Below, in pieces: positions 2,499 to 37,700 of a stretch of DNA of 37,700 bases. A model generated the notes under the pieces. The model was not told where the DNA came from and searched no databases. It saw only the letters and a program-made list of their open reading frames with translations. The translations under genes were made by a program, and so were the position numbers. Position 1 is the first letter of the stretch, and every line of letters begins with the position of its first letter. The DNA lies in IMG/VR virus record IMGVR_UViG_3300010938_000085, positions 1-37,700 of that record; one strand, written 5' to 3'. The stretch comes from a virus.

Positions 2499-2712
2499 AG
2501 AGCTGCGTCCCATTCTTGAATCGAACGCCGAGTTGTTCGGCTCCTGTAAAATATGCGGGACCGGGCGCATGCTCCTTTTCAACCGCGACTATGTGATGTG
2601 CCCCGCCGGATGCGAACCGATGTTTCCTTCTCCAGGTAAAGACATTACACTTGATTTCCGGGCGGACTCGCTTCGGCGAGCAAAGATTCGAAAAAGAGAC
2701 TTGGAGGCCTAG
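2485..2712 (+). CDS. Zinc-ribbon small protein next to the primase
   Basis: 75 residues from ATG 2485, with aagga eight bases upstream. The region CKICGTG...YVMCPAGC (about residues 21-44) is a treble-clef or zinc-ribbon type C-x2-C...C-x3-C cluster. A basic C-terminus follows (DSLRRAKIRKRDLEA). It overlaps the preceding gene by 14 nt, and its stop touches the GTG of the primase-helicase (TAGTG). Phage primases often carry an N-terminal zinc-binding domain; this one lacks it, so a separately encoded zinc module working with the primase is possible. That link is inference. Confidence 0.7.
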   Translation: MVKPEELRPILESNAELFGSCKICGTGRMLLFNRDYVMCPAGCEPMFPSPGKDITLDFRADSLRRAKIRKRDLEA

Positions 2713-5273
2713 TGAGCGTCGCAATCTACTCGCGCCTGATCGAGTTGGCCGCACTGTCGCCCGACGACAGGGCCGCGCTGAAGACCAAGAGGGGGTTTTC
2801 AGACGAGACGATCGACAGGTTTCGATTCAGGTCATGCGGCCCGGATCTCGGCAAGATCATTGACGGGGTGCTGAAGGCGGAGTTCCAGGGGTCGGAGCTG
2901 GTCGAGGCCGGTGTTGTGACGGAGACGCTTGAGCCGCACTTCGTCCTGACGAAGCCGAACATCCTGATCCCCTATCTGGACGGCGACAGGGTGATGCACA
3001 TCAGACCGCACAAGTACGGGATCCCGGAGAAGGCGCCGCAGATCTACAAGGCCGGGACCGCAAGCGCGATCGTCCTGACAGAGAGCGAGTTCAAGGCGGC
3101 GGCTTCTCATCAGTTCGGATTCCCGGCGTGGGGGATTCCCGGCATCTCTTCTTTTTCGCGCCAGCACGCGCCGCGCTTCATCGAAACGATCAAGGCGGCC
3201 GAGATCACGAACGTCTTCATCATCTTTGACAACGAGAAGAAGGACGATCCGACTCTCGCCAGCTACAAGCAGGATCCGGAAAAAAGATGGGACACGCAGT
3301 TCTACGCGATCGTGATGGCGAAGAATCTGGAAAAGGCCGGGATCAGCGCAAAGATTTGTACGTTGCCGTCCGACTGGATGCGCGACGGAAAGATCGACAT
3401 TGATGGGGCGCTGGCTCAAGGCCGAAAGCCTGACGAGTACAAGCGCGTGATCATGTCGGGGCTCCCGCAGAAAGAGTACCGCTATCGCCAACCCAAAGAG
3501 GCCATGCAGATCATCGCCCGCAAAGACAAAATCTGGTGGAGGAACCCGCTGGTTCGGAAGGAGTTCAATCGCTACGTTTCGACCAGGACCAAGGGGAAAG
3601 AATCAGTTGATGTCGACATCTCGAATTTCACGGTCAGTGTCCGGTCGAACTTCTACATCGAGAACGACGGCGGCGCGAACGAGATCACGAGAAGCGTCGT
3701 CCTGACCGATGAGTTCGGGCGCGAGAGTCAGCCCGTGATCATGACGAGCGAGGACATGACGAGCGAGGGATTCGCTGATTTTGCAAAGAAGCAAGGCCCG
3801 TATCTCTGGAAGGGCAACAAGGCCGAGATGGACGACGTATGGGAAGACGCCTTCCTGCGTGACACGGGCCGGATCATCTACCAGCCGAATCACATCGGCC
3901 GCATGAAGGACGGAAGCTGGCTCTTTGGAAACGTCGGGATCAACTCGGCCGGGGAGCTTGTGACGCCTGACGAGGAAGGTATCTTCTGGATCGACGGCAA
4001 GGGGTACAAGCCCAGGGGCATCGGCGATACGGAGCCCCCGGTCATGGAAACCAGGTACAAGGTTGACATCTGGGAGTACTCTCAGAAGCTCGCTCAATGC
4101 TACGGCAACCAGGGGGTGAAGGCCGCAATCGGCTGGGTCTTGGGGTCGGCCTACGCGGACGATATCCACAGGGAGGTGGGCCTGTACCCCCTCCTGTTCA
4201 TCGGCGGCAAGAAGGGATCCGGCAAGACGACGCTGGCTCGCTGGCTCATGAAGTTGGCCGGGCGAGACGAGCCGGTCCAGAGCATCGGGTCTGTCACAAC
4301 CGAGAACGCCATTATCCAGCGCCTCAAGTGGTCAAGCTGCATGCCATGTTTCTGGGACGAGTTCAGGAATTCCAAAGACATGGCCCGCCGGGAGGGGCTT
4401 CTGCGGGTGGTCTTCAATAGGGGCGGCGTCAGCAAGGCGATCAGGACCGGGGATGGCCTTCGGTCCGTCACCGCCAGGGGGACCGTCATGCTGGCCGGGC
4501 AGGACCGCCCCAATGACGAGGCGTTCTTTGACCGCATGATCGACATCAATATCTCGGAAGAGCGGCGAACCGGAGAGCATTACAAGTGGCTGGCGCAACA
4601 ATCCGGGATCTTGTCATCAGTGTACTTGGACGTGATCAGACGCAAGAAGGAATTCTTGCCTGGCGTCTTGGCCGGGATCGAGAAGTTTGCGCAACTGCTC
4701 TTGAAGCGCGGAGCCGGGGACCGGACGGCTGTAACTTACGGGGTGGTAGCGTCGTGCTACTGGACCTTCTGCGTCCCCCAAGAGAAGCCGGACATCGCGT
4801 TCACTGACTGGCTCGGCACGTCGTCGGATCAGAAGACGGAAGAGGTCAAGGACGACAGTCCGACGACGAAGTTCTGGGATTCCGTGATATCCTACGTTGA
4901 CAGGGGCGACATCGACAAGGCGTGTTTCAAGAGGTCCGGCGACGGCAAACTGATCTACGTCTACATGCGGCAGGTCTACGACAAGTGGGCCGAATGCGAA
5001 AGGAGGATCGGCCGCGAGCCGTGGAACGAAAACGCGATCATCCGGTACATGGACAACGAGGGATATCTTCACAGCAGATCGACAACGAACAGGTTCAACG
5101 GGAATATGCGGCGGTGCATCGCCATTGAATCCAGAACCGCGCCAAAATCGCTGCTGGATTACATGGAAGGAGAGTCGTCGAATGGCAACGGTGGACACAA
5201 TCCCCATGTCGATAGGACAGCGTCCGAACCAGAAGACTTATTCGATTCCGGAGGCGCTGAAGCGAGCGCATGA
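2712..5273 (+). CDS. Primase-helicase: TOPRIM-like domain (DUF3854 type) plus AAA+ helicase
   Basis: 853 residues, starting at GTG 2712 (site ggagg). The N-terminal third resembles a TOPRIM/DUF3854 primase module: LTESEFKAAA (122-131) supplies the acidic residue and NVFIIFDNEK (167-176) the second acidic motif. The C-terminal half is a P-loop NTPase: Walker A GGKKGSGKT (498-506), a Walker B-like stretch ending CFWDEF (546-551) and a sensor-like segment TVMLAGQDRP (591-600). This order fits phage primase-helicases that prime and unwind DNA at the fork. It has no zinc ribbon of its own; the upstream gene has one. It is the largest early gene, and the next gene starts inside its 3' end. Confidence 0.85.
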   Translation: MSVAIYSRLIELAALSPDDRAALKTKRGFSDETIDRFRFRSCGPDLGKIIDGVLKAEFQGSELVEAGVVTETLEPHFVLTKPNILIPYLDGDRVMHIRPHKYGIPEKAPQIYKAGTASAIVLTESEFKAAASHQFGFPAWGIPGISSFSRQHAPRFIETIKAAEITNVFIIFDNEKKDDPTLASYKQDPEKRWDTQFYAIVMAKNLEKAGISAKICTLPSDWMRDGKIDIDGALAQGRKPDEYKRVIMSGLPQKEYRYRQPKEAMQIIARKDKIWWRNPLVRKEFNRYVSTRTKGKESVDVDISNFTVSVRSNFYIENDGGANEITRSVVLTDEFGRESQPVIMTSEDMTSEGFADFAKKQGPYLWKGNKAEMDDVWEDAFLRDTGRIIYQPNHIGRMKDGSWLFGNVGINSAGELVTPDEEGIFWIDGKGYKPRGIGDTEPPVMETRYKVDIWEYSQKLAQCYGNQGVKAAIGWVLGSAYADDIHREVGLYPLLFIGGKKGSGKTTLARWLMKLAGRDEPVQSIGSVTTENAIIQRLKWSSCMPCFWDEFRNSKDMARREGLLRVVFNRGGVSKAIRTGDGLRSVTARGTVMLAGQDRPNDEAFFDRMIDINISEERRTGEHYKWLAQQSGILSSVYLDVIRRKKEFLPGVLAGIEKFAQLLLKRGAGDRTAVTYGVVASCYWTFCVPQEKPDIAFTDWLGTSSDQKTEEVKDDSPTTKFWDSVISYVDRGDIDKACFKRSGDGKLIYVYMRQVYDKWAECERRIGREPWNENAIIRYMDNEGYLHSRSTTNRFNGNMRRCIAIESRTAPKSLLDYMEGESSNGNGGHNPHVDRTASEPEDLFDSGGAEASA

Positions 5274-5508
5274 AATATTCGAAGGGACGATCTATATGGA
5301 TGGAAAACCAGTGATGGGAGATGACGTTGTGGCCGCCTGCAAGCTCGTCTTGGATCTATTGAAGATCCATCACCCGGAAGCCATTGTCTCGGGCGCCGCG
5401 ATGCTGCGGGATCCGGATACCAGGGCGAGGTTCTGCAAGAATTCCATGTCGCTCATACCGGCAACCGACTTACCTGAAGGAGTTGTTGAGGCATTAAATA
5501 AGTTCTAG
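5182..5508 (+). CDS. Small early protein downstream of primase, unknown function
   Basis: 108 residues. The ATG at 5182 has a good ribosome site (aaggagag) nine bases upstream and lies 92 nt inside the primase-helicase gene in another frame. An upstream in-frame ATG at 5125 lacks such a site. The central part is helical (SIPEALKRAHEIFE; DDVVAACKLVLDLLKIHHPEA). There are no catalytic motifs and no membrane segment. By position it may be a replication accessory protein; this is inference. Confidence 0.65.
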   Translation: MATVDTIPMSIGQRPNQKTYSIPEALKRAHEIFEGTIYMDGKPVMGDDVVAACKLVLDLLKIHHPEAIVSGAAMLRDPDTRARFCKNSMSLIPATDLPEGVVEALNKF

Positions 5509-5516
5509 ATTTTAAT

Positions 5517-5545
5517 TTGACAATCTACATCTAAAAGGTAAGTTT
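5517..5545 (+). promoter_or_regulatory. Weak candidate sigma70 promoter
   Basis: TTGACA (5517-5522) is an exact -35 consensus in a short AT-rich gap, one of the few non-coding gaps in the early unit. The -10 positions read taagtt or aagttt at 16-17 bp, a poor match, so activity is uncertain. It would drive the small protein at 5551 and the SNF2 helicase. The aaaagg at 5533-5538 may also serve as a distant ribosome site for the ATG at 5551. Confidence 0.3.
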
Positions 5546-5550
5546 AGCGC

Positions 5551-5769
5551 ATGAAATCAAGATACCAATACGAGTCGCAGACGCTCTACTTCGGAAAGAA
5601 GTTCGAGGGTCTTAGCGCGGCGATTACGGGCGCCGCAACCAGGGCTGGAATCAGTCCGAGTGAGTACATCTGCCGCGTCGTCGCCGATCGCCTCAAGTGG
5701 GTGAAGGAGCCCCCGAATCTCGATGGCACTACTGACAGGGGAACGGCCGAGACTCCGGCTGCACAGTGA
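5551..5769 (+). CDS. Small possible ribbon-helix-helix protein
   Basis: 72 residues. A short beta-like N-terminus (YQYESQTLYFGKKF) is followed by two helices around a turn (LSAAITGAATRAGISPSEYI; RVVADRL), the general shape of a ribbon-helix-helix DNA-binding protein, although the match is by pattern only. The C-terminal 15 residues overlap the start of the SNF2 helicase gene and look unstructured. It follows one of the few gaps in the early operon. Confidence 0.6.
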   Translation: MKSRYQYESQTLYFGKKFEGLSAAITGAATRAGISPSEYICRVVADRLKWVKEPPNLDGTTDRGTAETPAAQ

Positions 5770-7360: not shown

Positions 7361-7668
7361 GGCGAAATAGAGCGAACGAGTCCGATCTGCAGAAGAAAGT
7401 CATGTCGCGCCTCAAATCCTTCGGCGGCTATGTCCGCCGCAACGTGCAGGGGCCGTACTCCAGGGTCGGAACCCCGGATATCGAGGGCGTATGGCATGGG
7501 ATCTTCTGGGCGATCGAACTGAAGAGGAAGGGCAAGAAGGCCGACAAGTTGCAGGCTAAGGAATTAATTGACATCCAGACGAACGGTGGTATGGTTGCCG
7601 TGGTTGACGACATGAGCGCCCTTGAGGCGTTCCTGGGAAGCATAGAAAGGAGCCGCGAAAATGTCTGA
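7357..7668 (+). CDS. VRR-NUC family nuclease
   Basis: 103 residues, the usual size of stand-alone phage VRR-NUC proteins (PF08774). Catalytic elements of this PD-(D/E)XK fold are visible: an early Glu in the first helix (NESDLQ), GTPDIEG (38-44) with Asp41, and AIELKRKG (52-59) with the E-x-K pair Glu54/Lys56, followed by a helix with Gln66. Family members cut branched DNA. The ATGA overlap with the SNF2 helicase suggests the two act together on replication or recombination intermediates; SNF2 plus VRR-NUC is a recurring pair in siphophage replication modules. Confidence 0.9.
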   Translation: MRRNRANESDLQKKVMSRLKSFGGYVRRNVQGPYSRVGTPDIEGVWHGIFWAIELKRKGKKADKLQAKELIDIQTNGGMVAVVDDMSALEAFLGSIERSRENV

Positions 7669-8080
7669 GGAAACGGACCTCGCTATTGCCGTGGAGAGTA
7701 CGAAGATGCCGGCGCTGGCCGATGCGCTGGCCGACGTGAGGCGTCAGCTCGCCGAGCTTGAGCTTCAAGAGAAGGAGCTTGAGGCGACGCTTCTGGATGC
7801 GATGCTGAAGGCCAACTGTTCGAGCTTCAAGACGGATAACGGCGTTCAGGCTGTCGTCTCGAAGAGGTTCCACCTCGAAGGGATCACCGACGAGATCAAG
7901 GAGGAAATCTGCAAGGCGCTGATCGAGAACGGCCACGGCGACATGGTGCGGCAAATGTACAACCATGCGTCGTATCAGGCGCTTGAGCGCCAGCGCAACG
8001 AGCAGGGTCAGCCGACCCTGCATCCGGCTGTCAAGGCGGTGACGAGGCCCGGACTGTCGCTCCGGGGAGTGAAGGCATAG
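7661..8080 (+). CDS. Gp157-like coiled-coil phage protein
   Basis: 139 residues. The N-terminal half is a coiled coil (ADVRRQLAELELQEKELEAT), followed by a SFKTDNGVQAVVSKRF beta segment and a C-terminal PTLHPAVKAVTRPGLSLRG. This arrangement recurs in phage proteins encoded beside helicases and ssDNA-binding proteins, some called Gp157. Their function is not settled; a role with the recombination proteins is presumed. It overlaps the nuclease gene by 8 nt with its own site (aaaggag). Confidence 0.6.
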   Translation: MSEETDLAIAVESTKMPALADALADVRRQLAELELQEKELEATLLDAMLKANCSSFKTDNGVQAVVSKRFHLEGITDEIKEEICKALIENGHGDMVRQMYNHASYQALERQRNEQGQPTLHPAVKAVTRPGLSLRGVKA

Positions 8081-20387: not shown

Positions 20388-21052
20388 GGGCAGACGATTA
20401 TCTTAGTTTCCTGGTAAATTCGATTGACAATCATCGTACTGACAACGTCGTTAACGCCCAGGCGAAACATCTTGCCGTTCCCATCCCATGTAAAGCTGGC
20501 CGTGCCCATCAGGACCCAATTTGATTCTGTGTCAACAACCTGCTTGTACCAGTTCACGGTGGATCCAATCGTCTGTATCCGTAAGCGAACCGTTGTAAGA
20601 TTTGGAAATGCCGCAACGGTCGCAACAACCGAACTTGCCCCGTTCACAAGCTTTATCGCGCTAAGATCAGACCCGCTTCGCTCCCACCTTGCTCCGTCTA
20701 AATGCGACGGAGCATCAACTGCAAAGTATTGATCTCCGTTCTGTCCGAACCGAACCTCGGCAACCCAGTCTATGTCGGTTTCAGCCGATACATTCAAAAT
20801 TGAATTGTTGGCAAAAGACGGGGCTCCGCTTGGCCCGAGTGTGAGTGCGCCACCTGAAACAGAAATGGCTCCGCCCGATGTCCAATATGATGACAGGCCG
20901 GATCCGTCAAAATTATCTCCGTAAAAGCACTCTGGGCGACTTCCACCCCTCGTCCTGTATGTTCTGACGATTCTCATTCCGCGCCTCTTGCGCGCAATGT
21001 CGGAGGCGAACGATGCCGCTAGATCGCCTCTTAACGGAAACTGATCGCCCAT
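20384..21052 (-). CDS. LamG/concanavalin-like lectin-fold virion protein
   Basis: 222 residues. After a basic N-terminus comes a jelly-roll pattern: YGDNFDGSGLSSYWTSGGAI (44-63), then GGALTLGPSG, DIDWVAEVRFGQNGDQYFAV, TTVRLRIQTIGSTVNWYKQV and FRLGVNDVVSTMIVNRIYQE. This is the strand order of laminin-G/DUF1349-like carbohydrate-binding domains. Such domains on phage capsids or fibres often give weak binding to glycans. A good site (gggagg) precedes the ATG at 21052, inside the 9-residue mini-ORF. Confidence 0.65.
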   Translation of the reverse strand: MGDQFPLRGDLAASFASDIARKRRGMRIVRTYRTRGGSRPECFYGDNFDGSGLSSYWTSGGAISVSGGALTLGPSGAPSFANNSILNVSAETDIDWVAEVRFGQNGDQYFAVDAPSHLDGARWERSGSDLSAIKLVNGASSVVATVAAFPNLTTVRLRIQTIGSTVNWYKQVVDTESNWVLMGTASFTWDGNGKMFRLGVNDVVSTMIVNRIYQETKIIVCP

Positions 21053-28103: not shown

Positions 28104-29162
28104 TTAATCGGAAGGAAGCCCGGCGCCAATGCCCCTTTCAGCCAAAAGCGACTCAAGACTCGTCTTTCCAGCGACGTAATTCTTGAGCGATTTGTGCCTG
28201 TCAACATTTTGGGTTCTGACCGTGGCGGGACTTCTCCCGCCTCCATTCAGTAGCGCCGCGCCTGCCTTCTCGGACGGTGTGACAGGCGGTTTCTTTGAGC
28301 CATTCGGTTTCATCGCCTTCTCCTCAGCAAGCCTGGCGAATGCCTCCCTTGAAGCGATCAAGACGCCGCGCGGGTTGGACTGGAGATCCTTAGCCGAAAT
28401 CCCGAGTTCAGGGATTCCAGTCTCAGAATATATCTTCTCGGCGAGTGTTCGAAGCGGGGATCCCTGAATGGCGAGTTCGGGGTATTTCTTCTGCGCCTGC
28501 TGGCTGGCGATGGCGGCTTGCTCTCGCGCAGACAGCTCTTCCCTGACGCTCTTCACGGCGGCATCAGCTTCTTGGCGAATCATCTTCTTGAGCGCCAATG
28601 GCCGATACTGCTTCACTTTATCGGCATATTCCGGATGGTTGTCGGCAATGAAATCCAGTTCATCCACAGTCAAGTCTTCCCATGTCTTCGCAGAAGACTT
28701 CTCCTGTTGCGGTTCTTTGACGCGAGAGCTGATCTCGGAAACCTGGCCTTGCAGCTTCGCAAGCTCCAACTTGAGGGCGTTCTGAGCTTCCTCTGCCAAT
28801 CTGGCCCTAGTCTCCGCCTCCTTCGCCTTTGCGTTCAACTGCTTGATTCGCTTCTGAGCGCGATTCCCAAGCTGCTTATCGAGTTCTTCTTCACCGTCTC
28901 CGGCGTCTTCCGGATCGCCCGCAGCGGCATCCTCGGGTTCCTCTGCGGTGTCGGTTGCTTCAGGAGAAGTCTCCTCCGTCTTCTCCTTTTCCTCTTCAGA
29001 CGGTTGCTTCGGGAGGGTCTTGGACGGCTCCGCTGGAACCGAATCCAACTCCTCCGGGGCGTCTTGCGAGGCGCCCGCAGGCTCGTCAGCAGCCTGTTTC
29101 GTCGCGGCTTCCGGGAACATCTGTCCGAAACCGAGACGATTCGCAAGGTCTTTCTTCGACAT
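28104..29162 (-). CDS. Scaffolding protein
   Basis: 352 residues from ATG 29162 behind a consensus site (aaggagga). The first 90 residues are acidic, Pro/Glu/Ala-rich and disordered (EEEKEKTEETSPEATDTAEE); then a coiled coil (KQLNAKAKEAETRARLAEEA), a middle helical part and a basic C-terminal end (TQNVDRHKSLKNYV), the usual capsid-contacting end of scaffolds. The place just before the capsid gene supports the call; no protease motif is seen, so it is probably a scaffold without maturation protease. Confidence 0.8.
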   Translation of the reverse strand: MSKKDLANRLGFGQMFPEAATKQAADEPAGASQDAPEELDSVPAEPSKTLPKQPSEEEKEKTEETSPEATDTAEEPEDAAAGDPEDAGDGEEELDKQLGNRAQKRIKQLNAKAKEAETRARLAEEAQNALKLELAKLQGQVSEISSRVKEPQQEKSSAKTWEDLTVDELDFIADNHPEYADKVKQYRPLALKKMIRQEADAAVKSVREELSAREQAAIASQQAQKKYPELAIQGSPLRTLAEKIYSETGIPELGISAKDLQSNPRGVLIASREAFARLAEEKAMKPNGSKKPPVTPSEKAGAALLNGGGRSPATVRTQNVDRHKSLKNYVAGKTSLESLLAERGIGAGLPSD

Positions 29163-31998: not shown

Positions 31999-33324
31999 CT
32001 AAATACCGTACCCCGAACTCCCCCGCGACGCAACATCTTGTGTCTCACTGTTCGCATACCACTCACTCGGCGGGATGTGCCATGATCGGCTCATGACGAG
32101 GTAACGAAGAGCATCGCAGGCGTGGTCATTGACTTTCCTCGGCGCCTCCGGAGCTTCCCTGCGCTGCATCGCCGAAAGAGTCATCTCCTTCCACTTGTAG
32201 TCCTGGATCTCCCAGATCAGGTTCTTGCACCGGCTCGAAATCTTGACGCGGCCGCTCTTGAAATACTCGGCCACCCGGTTCACTCCGGCGGCCACATCAT
32301 TGTTGGCCCGCTGACAGATGATCCCGAAATCGGCGAATTCGTCGGCCACCGAGATCAGTTGCCCGTCCTTCTCCCTCGTCCTGTTGAAGCAGGACGGGTC
32401 GATGTACGTCACCATGAACTCCTGATCGTCGCCCTTACTCTTCGACTTCTCCTTGATCGCCGACGCATGCTCCTGAATGGTCCATCCGCTCTGGTAATGC
32501 TCGTCGTAGATGATCAGATTGCCGTCGAAGTCCTCGGTGGCGAAGAGACAGCATGTCGGGTTCCTGTAGCCGAAGTCGATCGAGCGGAACAAGACTTGCC
32601 CATCGCTCGGCGTGTAGTCCTCGATGACGTGCTTCTTCTCCGAAAAGTCGCTCCAGATCAACCCCTCGAAGGCGTCCCATGATCCGTAGACATATCGCTT
32701 GATCCATTCTTCAGGATAGCTGTCCAGAAGCGATTGAAGATACCCGTCCGGCAGATACGGGTTGTCGCCCGTGGCACCCTCGAACAGGACGTAGTCGGCG
32801 GGGTTCACATCCTTATGCATCTTCCATCGCTTATAAATGAAATTGTGGCCGGCGGGGTTGCCTGTCAGGAAGCATTGCCTGACCGGAATATTCTCCCTGC
32901 GAAGCCGCCCGATGATGGACAGGAACACCTCTTCCCCCACCTCCTCGCCCTGGTCAATGAAGGCGAATCCGAGATTGTGGCCGAGCTTCAGATTCTCGGC
33001 GTGCCTGAACAGAATCTCGCTTCCGTTCGGCATCACCAGCTTCATCTCCCCGGCAAAGTAGTACTGCTTCAGCGCAGGCTTCAAATCAAAGAAGCTCTTC
33101 ATGGTCGTGTCGCGCAGGTCCGGATAATTCTGCCTCATGATGAGCCCGAGGTTGCCGGGGAAGATCTCCGAAAGCAGCAGCGCCTTGACGCATCCGGCCA
33201 AGGTCTTTCCGTTCCCGATCCCGCCGAAGTAGGCCGGATACTTGGCCTCGCAATCCACAAACGCCATCTGCTTCGGCAGCAGCGCAATCTGCTTGAAATC
33301 GGCAAGCGGATCAGCGCCCGACAT
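31999..33324 (-). CDS. terL: Terminase large subunit
   Basis: 441 residues from ATG 33324; the open frame continues upstream into other genes. ATPase domain: Walker A GGIGNGKT (34-41), Walker B LGFAFIDQGEEV (118-129) with Asp124, motif III TGNP (154-157). Nuclease domain: FRSIDFGYRNPT with Asp250, TYIDPS with Asp309, and NDHACDALRYL with Asp400/Asp404. This is the DNA-packaging motor and headful or site-specific nuclease. It follows the small subunit and a small Cys-rich gene, overlapping the latter by 14 nt. Confidence 0.93.
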   Translation of the reverse strand: MSGADPLADFKQIALLPKQMAFVDCEAKYPAYFGGIGNGKTLAGCVKALLLSEIFPGNLGLIMRQNYPDLRDTTMKSFFDLKPALKQYYFAGEMKLVMPNGSEILFRHAENLKLGHNLGFAFIDQGEEVGEEVFLSIIGRLRRENIPVRQCFLTGNPAGHNFIYKRWKMHKDVNPADYVLFEGATGDNPYLPDGYLQSLLDSYPEEWIKRYVYGSWDAFEGLIWSDFSEKKHVIEDYTPSDGQVLFRSIDFGYRNPTCCLFATEDFDGNLIIYDEHYQSGWTIQEHASAIKEKSKSKGDDQEFMVTYIDPSCFNRTREKDGQLISVADEFADFGIICQRANNDVAAGVNRVAEYFKSGRVKISSRCKNLIWEIQDYKWKEMTLSAMQRREAPEAPRKVNDHACDALRYLVMSRSWHIPPSEWYANSETQDVASRGSSGYGI

Positions 33325-33541
33325 CGTCCAACCTGTCCGAGTGATCGCCGCACTCGCATTCAAAGCGATGCGTCTTCTGGTTGAAGAGGACTCCGCTCGG
33401 GTCGCAAATCCTGTTGTGATACCGAAGAAACTTTTTCGGGACTGAAGATTTTTGCGGCAACTCCTCAAAATCCGGCATGGCGTCGAAGTGTCTCGCACAT
33501 AACGGCTTTTCCTTACAGCGCCGCTTTTCAGATTTGCTCAT
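33311..33541 (-). CDS. Small Cys/His protein between terminase subunits
   Basis: 76 residues from ATG 33541, an ATGA overlap with the small terminase stop. It contains RRCKEKPLCARHFD, a basic middle (VPKKFLRYHNRICDPSG) and a final FECECGDHSDR, so Cys/His residues that could hold zinc. An intervening gene here is unusual; it may be an HNH-like remnant or a terminase cofactor, but no full nuclease motif is visible. Confidence 0.6.
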   Translation of the reverse strand: MSKSEKRRCKEKPLCARHFDAMPDFEELPQKSSVPKKFLRYHNRICDPSGVLFNQKTHRFECECGDHSDRLDDVGR

Positions 33542-34056
33542 TTCTCGGGTGTCTCCTTCTGCGGGAGGATCTTCTCGGGCACGATCTCGGCGTCCACAGG
33601 CTTCGCCTTCCTCTCCGCCCTGATCGTGTTCGCCCTCTTCACCAGCCCCGTCGCCTTGTAATCCGATGTCGCCAGCGTCACGATCAGCGGGTTCTCCTTC
33701 TCCGCCTGGATCACTTTCTGGGTGGGAGCGTAACCGGAATCCCATCGCTCCATGAACAGTTTCAAATCGGGCGCCTTCCCGAATTCCAATGCCTGCCGCA
33801 ACAACTGAAGACCCACCACCCCCACCGACCCCCGGCACACCGCCTCGCAGCGAGCGTTGAACCACTCCTCGAATTGCCGGTCTTGAAGCGCCGCCCACCA
33901 GTCCTCCGGTTGAATCCCGACCTTTCGGCAGCGGTCCGTGATCGTCATCTTCCCGTCCGCCAGGAAGCTCTCCGCGAATTTCTTGGCCCACACCGGCGGC
34001 TGGTAGGAGTTCAACTCCGCATCAACGATCCGGGCGAGGAGTTCTACTGAGGCCAT
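33538..34056 (-). CDS. terS: Terminase small subunit (probable)
   Basis: 172 residues. The first half has a helix-turn-helix-like segment (KMTITDRCRKVGIQPEDWWA), followed by a helical region (LQLLRQALEFGKAPDLKLFM) and a charged, unstructured C-terminus (VDAEIVPEKILPQKETPEK). This DNA-recognising N-terminus plus oligomerising core, right before the large subunit, is typical of TerS, which binds the packaging site. The tandem-repeat array just upstream may include that site. Confidence 0.75.
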   Translation of the reverse strand: MASVELLARIVDAELNSYQPPVWAKKFAESFLADGKMTITDRCRKVGIQPEDWWAALQDRQFEEWFNARCEAVCRGSVGVVGLQLLRQALEFGKAPDLKLFMERWDSGYAPTQKVIQAEKENPLIVTLATSDYKATGLVKRANTIRAERKAKPVDAEIVPEKILPQKETPEK

Positions 34057-34340: not shown

Positions 34341-34372
34341 GCAACCGCGCAACCGCGCAACCGCGCAACCGC
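34341..34372. repeat. Four exact tandem copies of gcaaccgc
   Basis: Units at 34341-34348, 34349-34356, 34357-34364 and 34365-34372 are identical. An 8-bp unit cannot keep a reading frame, so this is non-coding. It adjoins the larger 8-bp array to its right. Confidence 0.9.
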
Positions 34373-34380
34373 GTCACGGC

Positions 34381-34600
34381 GCAGCATGGTTGACAGCGTG
34401 ACGGTGTGACTGCGTGACTGCGTGACTGCGTGATGGCGCGACATACCACACGCTGACTGCGTGACAGCGTGACGGTGTGATGACGTGGTGACGTGGTGAC
34501 GTGGTGACGTGACTGCGTGACGACGTGACAGCACGATGACGTGATTGACCACACGCTGACGGCGTGACGGTGTGACGGTGTGACGGCGTGACGGTGTGCT
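34381..34600. repeat. Degenerate 8-bp tandem array (gtgacNgc/gtgacggt type)
   Basis: About 220 bp dominated by gtgactgc, gtgacggt and gtggtgac units in phase, e.g. three successive gcgtgact and three successive gtggtgac. A 13-bp segment accacacgctgac occurs at 34445-34457 and again at 34548-34560, so the array also contains a second-order duplication of about 103 bp. No gene is present in it. Possible roles: packaging (pac) site next to terS, or part of the replication origin. Confidence 0.85.
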
Positions 34601-34640: not shown

Positions 34641-34750
34641 GATCGTTCACGGATTGAACGGTTGCGTTTGAAAAATTGTTCGCTATGCAATTTCTGCATG
34701 GTTGCTTTGATCGTTCACGGATTGAACGGTGGCGTTTGAACATTTGTTTG
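34641..34750. repeat. Two 42-bp direct repeats each containing an operator-like palindrome
   Basis: Copies at 34641-34682 and 34709-34750 (period 68 bp) differ at four positions; their first 22 bases are identical. Each holds cgttca-cggat-tgaacg, a 6-bp inverted repeat with a 5-nt centre (34644-34660 and 34712-34728). This is a plausible pair of sites for a dimeric DNA-binding protein. Confidence 0.8.
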
Positions 34751-34772
34751 CAGGGCCTACAGCTTGGTAAAC

Positions 34773-35052
34773 GTTTCGCGAAACAGTGAAACGTTCGTGA
34801 AACGAATGTATTTGATGGTTTGTACCGGCCGTAAACCCTCTATGGATATAGATATATATACATATACATATATTAGTGAAACGGTGAAACGCTTTTTCGG
34901 GGAATATCATATGGTGGCGCGGCCGCGCGATTTTTTCGCCAACCTCCCTTCACCAAAAACCACCGTTTCACCGTTTCACTGTTTCTGCGTTTACAACTTC
35001 TTTATCTGCTAGACTTGCAACGCCAACCAATGTAACGCGAAACAGTGAAACG
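34773..35052. other. Putative replication origin or switch: GTGAAACG iterons and AT-rich tract
   Basis: Seven exact GTGAAACG octamers: forward at 34786, 34797, 34876, 34884 and 35045, and reverse (CGTTTCAC) at 34964 and 34972. The array starts with a perfect palindrome gtttcgcgaaac (34773-34784). Some octamers are spaced 8 or 11 bp apart. Between the pairs lies an AT-only stretch (about 34841-34875), the lowest-GC part of the window. Iterons beside an easily melted tract are typical of origins, and the region lies where the two transcription units diverge. No gene is seen in it. Confidence 0.6.
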
Positions 35053-35120
35053 CTTTCCAAAAAATCGTTTCGCTGTTTTCTGTCAGGAATCAGGTTGACT
35101 TTTTTGTTTTTTTTTCTGTT

Positions 35121-37069: not shown

Positions 37070-37225
37070 GTACCGACGACAAAGCCCAGAGCGCAGGCGC
37101 AGGATCTGATCCTGGCGGCCGCGGCGAAATACGGCGCGACGGACCGGACAGACGCCGCGGCCTCGATAGCGGCCGCGGTCCTGATGCACGGTGAGGGCGT
37201 GATCGCCGAAAGAGAGAACGCATGA
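37066..37225 (+). CDS. Small helical protein that needs a +1 frameshift
   Basis: The ATG at 37066 (ATGA overlap, site gggagg) opens MSTDDKAQ, but continuing in that frame gives a Gly/Arg-rich sequence ending at 37194 that resembles a high-GC shadow. The +1 frame from about 37088 reads AQAQDLILAAAAKYGATDRT, then DAAASIAAAVLMHGEGVIAE and ends with a stop at 37223-37225, an ATGA overlap with the next gene. That frame has no start codon of its own. A +1 shift near 37087-37100 joins the two parts into a sensible 52-residue helical protein. Either an extra base in the sequence or a true frameshift; no classical +1 site is seen. Confidence 0.5.
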
Positions 37226-37700
37226 AGACCATCGCATTGCCTCGTGGATTCAGGATCTTGAGCGGCTCGCACAAATCGCGCGAGGAAGGCATGTGCGCGA
37301 TGGAGGCGGTCAGTTGGCTTTCCGGCGAGCCTCACTCCGACATGCCCTCCTGCGCCTCTCCGGTAATCGCCAAGCTCGTGATCGCGCTGAACGACTCGGC
37401 GCCGGATGACGCGACGAGAACCAAGGTCTTGAAGCCGTACCTCAAGCGGATCATCGGCACGAAAGCGGACCTGGAAACCGACATGCGTCGCATGTACGCC
37501 GTCGTCGATCTGGCTGTCAGGACGATTGCGGCCGACGCGATGGACTACGCGAAACTCGCGGAACAGGCCAATGCCCTGCGATCGCTGAAGAGGATCGACA
37601 GCGAGAAAGATGCCAACGCCGCCAGGGCCGCCGCCTGGGCCGCCAGGGCCGCCGTCTGGGCCGCCTGGGACGCAGCCGGGGACGCCGCCAGGGCCGCCGG
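37222..37700 (+). CDS. Ala-rich repeat protein with conserved N-terminal domain (continues at 1..157)
   Basis: At least 159 residues here. The N-terminal 120 match a family I recognise from actinobacteria and phages: EEGMCAMEAVSWLSGEPHSD (21-40), SCASPVIAKLVIALNDSAPD (43-62), then a helical part with ALRSLKRIDSEK. From about residue 130 come AARAAAWAARAAVWAAWDAA repeats encoded by 9-nt units, continuing across the window edge. Similar proteins are sometimes labelled putative immunity proteins, but their function is unknown. The ATG lies in an ATGA overlap. Repeat number may vary between phages. Confidence 0.7.
   Translation, partial: MKTIALPRGFRILSGSHKSREEGMCAMEAVSWLSGEPHSDMPSCASPVIAKLVIALNDSAPDDATRTKVLKPYLKRIIGTKADLETDMRRMYAVVDLAVRTIAADAMDYAKLAEQANALRSLKRIDSEKDANAARAAAWAARAAVWAAWDAAGDAARAA

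Follow-up and report, generated by a model that had tools for sequence, protein, structure and literature searches.

Organization of the locus

The window, meaning the whole stretch of DNA analysed here, corresponds to an entire virus record, 37,700 bases long. Both of its ends lie in frame within a single alanine-rich repeat gene (37223-37700 plus 1-153), and because they share this one frame the map probably closes through that gene into a circle, the break in the assembly probably falling within a repeat, in a genome that is circular or permuted. Structural genes (TerL, SU10-type portal, capsid) run leftward on the - strand from about 34.06 kb; small early genes, together with those for a primase-helicase, an SNF2-type helicase and an endonuclease-like protein, run rightward on the + strand from 35.22 kb, across the record end, to 9.6 kb. 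The site does lie where early and late units diverge, as the original prediction had it. The gap between the units, about 1 kb long and with only short, unconvincing open reading frames inside, contains from left to right an 8-bp repeat array (34341-34598), two 43-bp repeats (34641-34751), and an octamer cluster enclosing an AT-rich tract (34772-35073). The features that concern us are these:

2712-5273, + strand: putative initiator, an 853-aa TOPRIM primase plus AAA+ helicase (Cch/SaPI Rep/P4 alpha-like)
31999-33498, - strand, leftward unit: TerL
33538-34056: likely terS, in front of TerL
34341-34598: imperfect 8-bp direct-repeat array, GCAACCGC four times, then variants of GTGACNGC
34641-34683: first 43-bp direct repeat, with the 17-bp dyad CGTTCACGGATTGAACG
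34709-34751: second 43-bp direct repeat, 91% identical to the first and starting 68 bp after it
34772-34804, + strand: octamer group 1, palindrome GTTTCGCGAAAC (34773-34784) running into GAAACAGTGAAACG, then a second GTGAAACG
34832-34875: AT-rich tract, a probable unwinding element
34876-34891, + strand: octamer group 2, GTGAAACGGTGAAACG, a tandem pair 8 bp apart that abuts the AT-rich tract
34964-34985, - strand: octamer group 3, inverted tandem pair CGTTTCACCGTTTCAC plus a degenerate TGTTTC
35037-35073, + strand: octamer group 4, GCGAAACAGTGAAACG (exact octamer at 35045), with the inverted degenerate CGTTTCGC at 35066

The phage stands apart from others in the collections searched. Comparison at the DNA level with other phages gave no match to the record, and scans with the primase, TerL, the SNF2 helicase, the portal and one further structural protein found no close relatives. 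The capsid protein led to distant phages only, at 38-46% identity; this primase was absent from those that were searched, which therefore could not be used to test the site.

The octamer cluster and the AT-rich tract

Exact copies of GTGAAACG number seven in the record, all within 34786-35052 and none elsewhere: five on the + strand (34786, 34797, 34876, 34884 and 35045) and two on the - strand (34964 and 34972), with start-to-start distances of 11, 79, 8, 80, 8 and 73 bp. The 11-bp step is that between the two exact octamers of group 1. Group 3 forms a perfect 17-nt inverted repeat with 34875-34891. When the motif is relaxed to GYGAAACR, 12 of its 16 genomic sites start at 34772-35066. When 34641-35052 was shuffled 5000 times with dinucleotides preserved, no octamer was seen in more than four copies, counted without overlap (counting overlapping words gave six once in 1000 shuffles), and in shuffles of the whole genome the best octamer cluster per 350 bp held two to four. 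Thus three of the features claimed for the site, namely seven octamers in both orientations, their excess over chance and a perfect palindrome, all hold, and the palindrome GTTTCGCGAAAC is unique in the record. At seven copies, in both orientations and beyond chance, the window clears a threshold of five identical octamers. A search of all IMG/VR contigs with the paired octamer returned 18 matches, about the number expected by chance on a rough estimate.

The 30-mer at 34846-34875, directly before octamer group 2, has 10% GC, the lowest in the record; the 50-mer at 34832, with 22% GC, is tied for lowest, and the tract falls within the lowest 0.01% of 40-mers. The tract is AT-rich and not AT-only, which corrects the original prediction. 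The cluster in the window thus has both an adjoining AT-rich tract and a non-coding location.

The remaining repeats in the gap are of other kinds. Both 43-bp repeats carry CGTTCA-N5-TGAACG, a motif present only there in the record; the pair and its dyad are as first described, with a length of 43 bp where 42 bp had been given. They may be operators, a second repeat class (P4 has its type 2 decamers) or degenerate octamer sites: the CGTTCAC in the dyad equals CGTTTCAC minus one T. The 8-bp array, which the original prediction left out although it lies in the same gap, has an autocorrelation of 0.62 at 8 bp, is the only period-8 array of such length in the record, and sits 285-542 bp upstream of the likely terS; it is possibly a packaging site.

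Other motif scans were run over the same DNA. No DnaA box (TTWTNCACA), the mark of a DnaA-dependent origin, occurs in the whole record; the record's single IHF-consensus match, at 28836, is outside the region; and a scan of the gap for sigma-70-like promoters gave no site. GC skew, proposed earlier as a check on the origin, is unable to decide the matter: it turns at 34.5 kb and 9.6 kb, where gene direction switches, and shows no turn near 16 kb, the point opposite the site. Being confounded with gene direction, it carries no independent information on the origin.

The primase-helicase as candidate initiator

The 2712-5273 protein is the only plausible replication initiator found in the record. 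It matches the PHROG 1139 DNA primase and is 21-29% identical to primases of very different phages. For a more sensitive comparison a family profile was made from 16 relatives collected by sequence only, with the window protein left out, and searched against six-frame open reading frames of the window, of phages P4, P2 and 186, and of two contigs, G023 and G024. Of the window's reading frames it matched just one, that of the 853-aa protein (E = 2e-63), and it recovered P4 alpha at E = 3e-8; no reading frame was matched in P2, 186, G023 or G024. With the window protein included in the profile, the match spans profile positions 88-879 of 881, so that membership in the TOPRIM primase plus AAA+ helicase family (PHROG 1139-like) is significant over most of the protein. 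A five-member profile that includes the window protein matches the SCCmec helicase Cch (5dgk) in the helicase part at E = 5e-13 and DnaG TOPRIM cores over the TOPRIM part. The ATPase motifs are in place—Walker A GGKKGSGKT at about 498-506 and Walker B WDE at about 548-550—as are the sensor and arginine motifs (GQD 596-598, R608), the key residues being invariant among relatives. An N-terminal zinc-binding domain, which several relatives have and which is not universal in the family, is absent: the alignment begins at profile position 88 and at most 19 further residues lie upstream in frame.

Residues 713-816 are modelled as helix-strand-strand-helix-helix-strand-strand, a winged-helix-like order. 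Their pLDDT, mostly about 50-74, places them among the better parts of an AlphaFold model that is poor overall (mean pLDDT 42). VIA-align pairs this segment with TcpK (5vfx), a winged-helix relaxosome accessory protein bound to oriT DNA, at Z 7.2; Cch and SaPI Rep align at Z 6.5 and 6.4 over the helicase and C-terminal parts, with large rmsd. Common arrangements can produce Z values of this order. The model thus suggests a possible C-terminal winged-helix domain at about 713-816. Among characterised relatives, SaPI Rep and Cch2 recognise iterons or short repeats via their C-terminal domain (PMC7581432), and P4 alpha recognises iterons through a winged helix (PMC4234260). The initiator had been called not obvious, with the primase-helicase as sole candidate. 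Sole candidate it remains, now as a good one by virtue of a family related to iteron-binding initiators and not by mere default.

Octamer clusters in phages that share the primase

Phages were chosen by primase family alone, blind to repeats, and subjected to one fixed scan for exact octamers on either strand, non-overlapping, within 350 bp. In eight primase-sharing phages this yielded a single best cluster of at least five copies: phi3 (9 copies), Porphyromonas 024a (8), Sirocco (6), and ev239, Mae-Yong924-1, Halomonas 4908, Mae-JY29 and laban6-1 (5 each). Mixed orientation is common to all eight clusters, and each has next to it DNA whose local GC is among the lowest 1%. By eye comparison of cluster positions with annotation tables, all eight are outside genes of assigned function, five being strictly intergenic and three overlapping small annotated open reading frames of unknown function; those of phi3 and laban6-1 directly adjoin the primase gene. 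Tandem pairs 8-11 bp apart recur: 11, 8 and 8 in the window, 9, 10 and 9 in phi3, 10, 8 and 8 in Porphyromonas, 8 and 11 in ev239, and 10, 11 and 10 in P4.

Run on P4 as a positive control, the scan picks out both the annotated origin and crr, reporting the origin as six copies of GGTGAACA at spacings of 10, 11, 22, 43 and 10. The phages without this initiator (P2, 186, HP1, D3112 and HK97), a small control set of five, gave no more than three or four copies; where there were four, they sat in coding DNA rich in GC.

Several records fall short of a clear result. Smp131 and PfPro reach four copies, in non-coding clusters that are tied with others; in FPSV-D35 a motif like that of laban6-1 occupies the same place, in three exact copies only. 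The scan found no clear unique cluster in Ingeline_1, nor in ZY1 and 2F_1, which are truncated or partial records. 2F_1 is titled a partial genome. The ZY1 record begins and ends within genes, and its missing cluster is probably due to these limits, since the record lacks the stretch in which its close relative Halomonas 4908 has a cluster.

Two of these cases merit a description of their own. Although they have diverged, the Flavobacterium phages laban6-1 (38194-38356) and FPSV-D35 (20713-20876) have the motif YTCTCAAC in common, in the gap immediately 3' of their primase genes. In phi3, fifteen TGTTCCGG-like octamers (at most one mismatch) occupy 320 bp at 7402-7720, directly downstream of the primase gene; this is the densest cluster found, and a candidate origin of a cultured Pseudomonas phage.

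A further phage type (G023/G024; IMG/VR 3300001419_002203 and 3300005611_000157) has its six GTGRAACGGT decamers all packed into 170 bp of a gap (about 3383-3560 of 3300005611_000157) beside primase-polymerase-like and SNF2-type helicase genes. The profile found no relative of the window initiator there, the only counterpart being a distant SNF2 helicase, and for want of a related initiator we regard the decamer cluster as unexplained and do not enlist it as support.

Interpretation of the site

We consider it highly likely that 34772-35073 is the phage's replication origin, of the iteron type, with an octamer of its own and working as the P4 and SaPI origins do. The anatomy supports this, the octamers being arranged around the lowest-GC 30-mer in a gap at the early/late divergence. 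Two further lines of evidence do not depend on the repeats: the primase-helicase family is related to iteron-binding initiators, and phages picked by their primase alone show similar octamer clusters. The original prediction of a replication origin with a new iteron set is accordingly strengthened on both counts. Its claim of novelty stands for the octamer sequence; it does not extend to the kind of origin, which is known from P4, and the 43-bp repeats are at most possible iterons. Counting against an origin here is the position of the initiator gene, about 5.5 kb from the site, whereas in SaPI and SCC elements the origin adjoins the helicase gene. The lack of a second octamer site like P4 crr, the primase-sharing records with few copies or no clear cluster, the three clusters that overlap small open reading frames, the poor structure model and the want of close relatives in the collections searched also weigh on that side.

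Initiation at such an origin might proceed as follows. The TOPRIM primase-helicase would bind GTGAAACG in both orientations via its C-terminal domain, as its family suggests, and oligomers would build on the octamers, whose four groups are spaced at 73-104 bp about the AT-rich tract. The tract at 34832-34875 would then melt, allowing the AAA+ helicase to be loaded and to unwind, and the TOPRIM domain would prime synthesis.

A different role for the octamers, as operators for a phage transcription factor controlling divergent early and late promoters, appears unlikely to us. The factor could be a ribbon-helix-helix protein, and a candidate exists in the 72-aa product of 5551-5769, whose helix-helix model has weak Foldseek matches that include many ribbon-helix-helix proteins, such as CopG, Arc and the MazE/VapB antitoxins; all E-values exceed 0.6. 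Ribbon-helix-helix binding of 8-bp tandem sites is known from MetJ, and the tandem spacing here is exactly 8 bp in two pairs, at a site between divergent units. Yet one octamer pair is 11 bp apart, the sites are spread over 300 bp with no sigma-70-like promoter found near, and operators would leave unexplained both the AT-rich tract and the recurrence of clusters with the primase family. The 72-aa gene itself lies between those of the primase-helicase and the SNF2 helicase, and is preceded by an AT-rich gap, 5492-5541.

It is less probable still, and in our estimation very unlikely, that the gap serves chiefly for packaging and regulation, with the 8-bp array as pac, the 43-bp dyads as operators and the octamers as part of this system. 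The array lies upstream of the likely terS, in front of TerL, a placement comparable with that of SPP1 pac, which overlaps both the late promoters and the beginning of the TerS gene (PMC6316719); the joining of the record ends in frame in one repetitive gene also fits a circular or permuted map. Packaging accounts for the array and not for octamers around an AT-rich tract. A centromere-like partition site can be practically dismissed: GTGAAAC does resemble half of the ParB site parS, TGTTTCACGTGAAACA, but the octamers are mostly tandem, not head-to-head, the proteins scanned yielded neither ParA nor ParB, and the best parS match in the record has four mismatches and sits elsewhere. The record has no parS-like palindrome, which contradicts a parS site.

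Taking the site as an iteron origin, we incline slightly towards a broader proposal: that phages with a TOPRIM-Cch-type primase-helicase in general use one octamer-origin design, the octamer varying with the C-terminal domain of the initiator. In this design, octamers of mixed orientation would form tandem pairs 8-11 bp apart and groups separated by tens of bp, around very AT-rich DNA. If this is true, one could tell from sequence where the origins of many unrelated phages lie, the window included, and which octamer goes with which DNA-binding domain. A probable origin and initiator are here assigned to a phage without known close relatives; it is the recurrence across the initiator family, more than the single origin, that is of interest, linking a P4-like origin design to a wider family of phage primases. 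A simple prediction follows for about ten sequenced phages, among them several whose hosts are in culture (Pseudomonas phi3 and Sirocco), and matched DNA-binding domains and octamers may provide a set in which to study site choice by initiators. A limited literature search, weak evidence of absence, gave no description of such clusters across the primase family.

Comparison with known origins

The SPP1 origins oriL and oriR also combine direct repeats with an AT-rich unwinding element (PMC6316719); they differ in employing an initiator, gp38, a separate loader, gp39, and a DnaB-type helicase, gp40. SaPI Rep and the SCCmec proteins Cch and Cch2 are initiator helicases with iteron origins, and it is Cch that the helicase part of the family matches; their origin, however, is directly downstream of the helicase gene, whereas that proposed for the window is about 5.5 kb upstream, and the Cch2 iteron, AAGTG, is unlike the window octamer. 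The eight phages share with the window the primase family and clusters of mixed-orientation octamers, often in tandem pairs 8-11 bp apart, whose groups are separated by tens of bp next to very AT-rich DNA. The octamer is particular to each phage, and all these clusters, like the window's, are predicted origins.

P4 (NC_001609) is the closest worked example. Its origin has 8-bp repeats, GGTGAACA, in both orientations with a tandem spacing of 9-11 bp and an AT-rich flank, and lies in a gap between divergent early and late units, kilobases from the initiator gene; P4 alpha has the same broad make-up of TOPRIM primase, helicase and C-terminal DNA-binding domain, the last being a possible one in the window protein. 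Against this, the window octamer is YGTTTCRC, not TGTTCACC, and the window lacks P4 type 2 decamers and a second cis region like crr, its octamer being confined to the cluster. The 43-bp dyads and the 8-bp array are further features of the window; its initiator is without the N-terminal zinc finger, and the element is a 37.7-kb phage where P4 is a satellite. The differing octamer and the lack of a crr-like region with the same octamers rule out a P4 origin in the strict sense: the site works like the P4 origin without belonging to it in the narrow sense.
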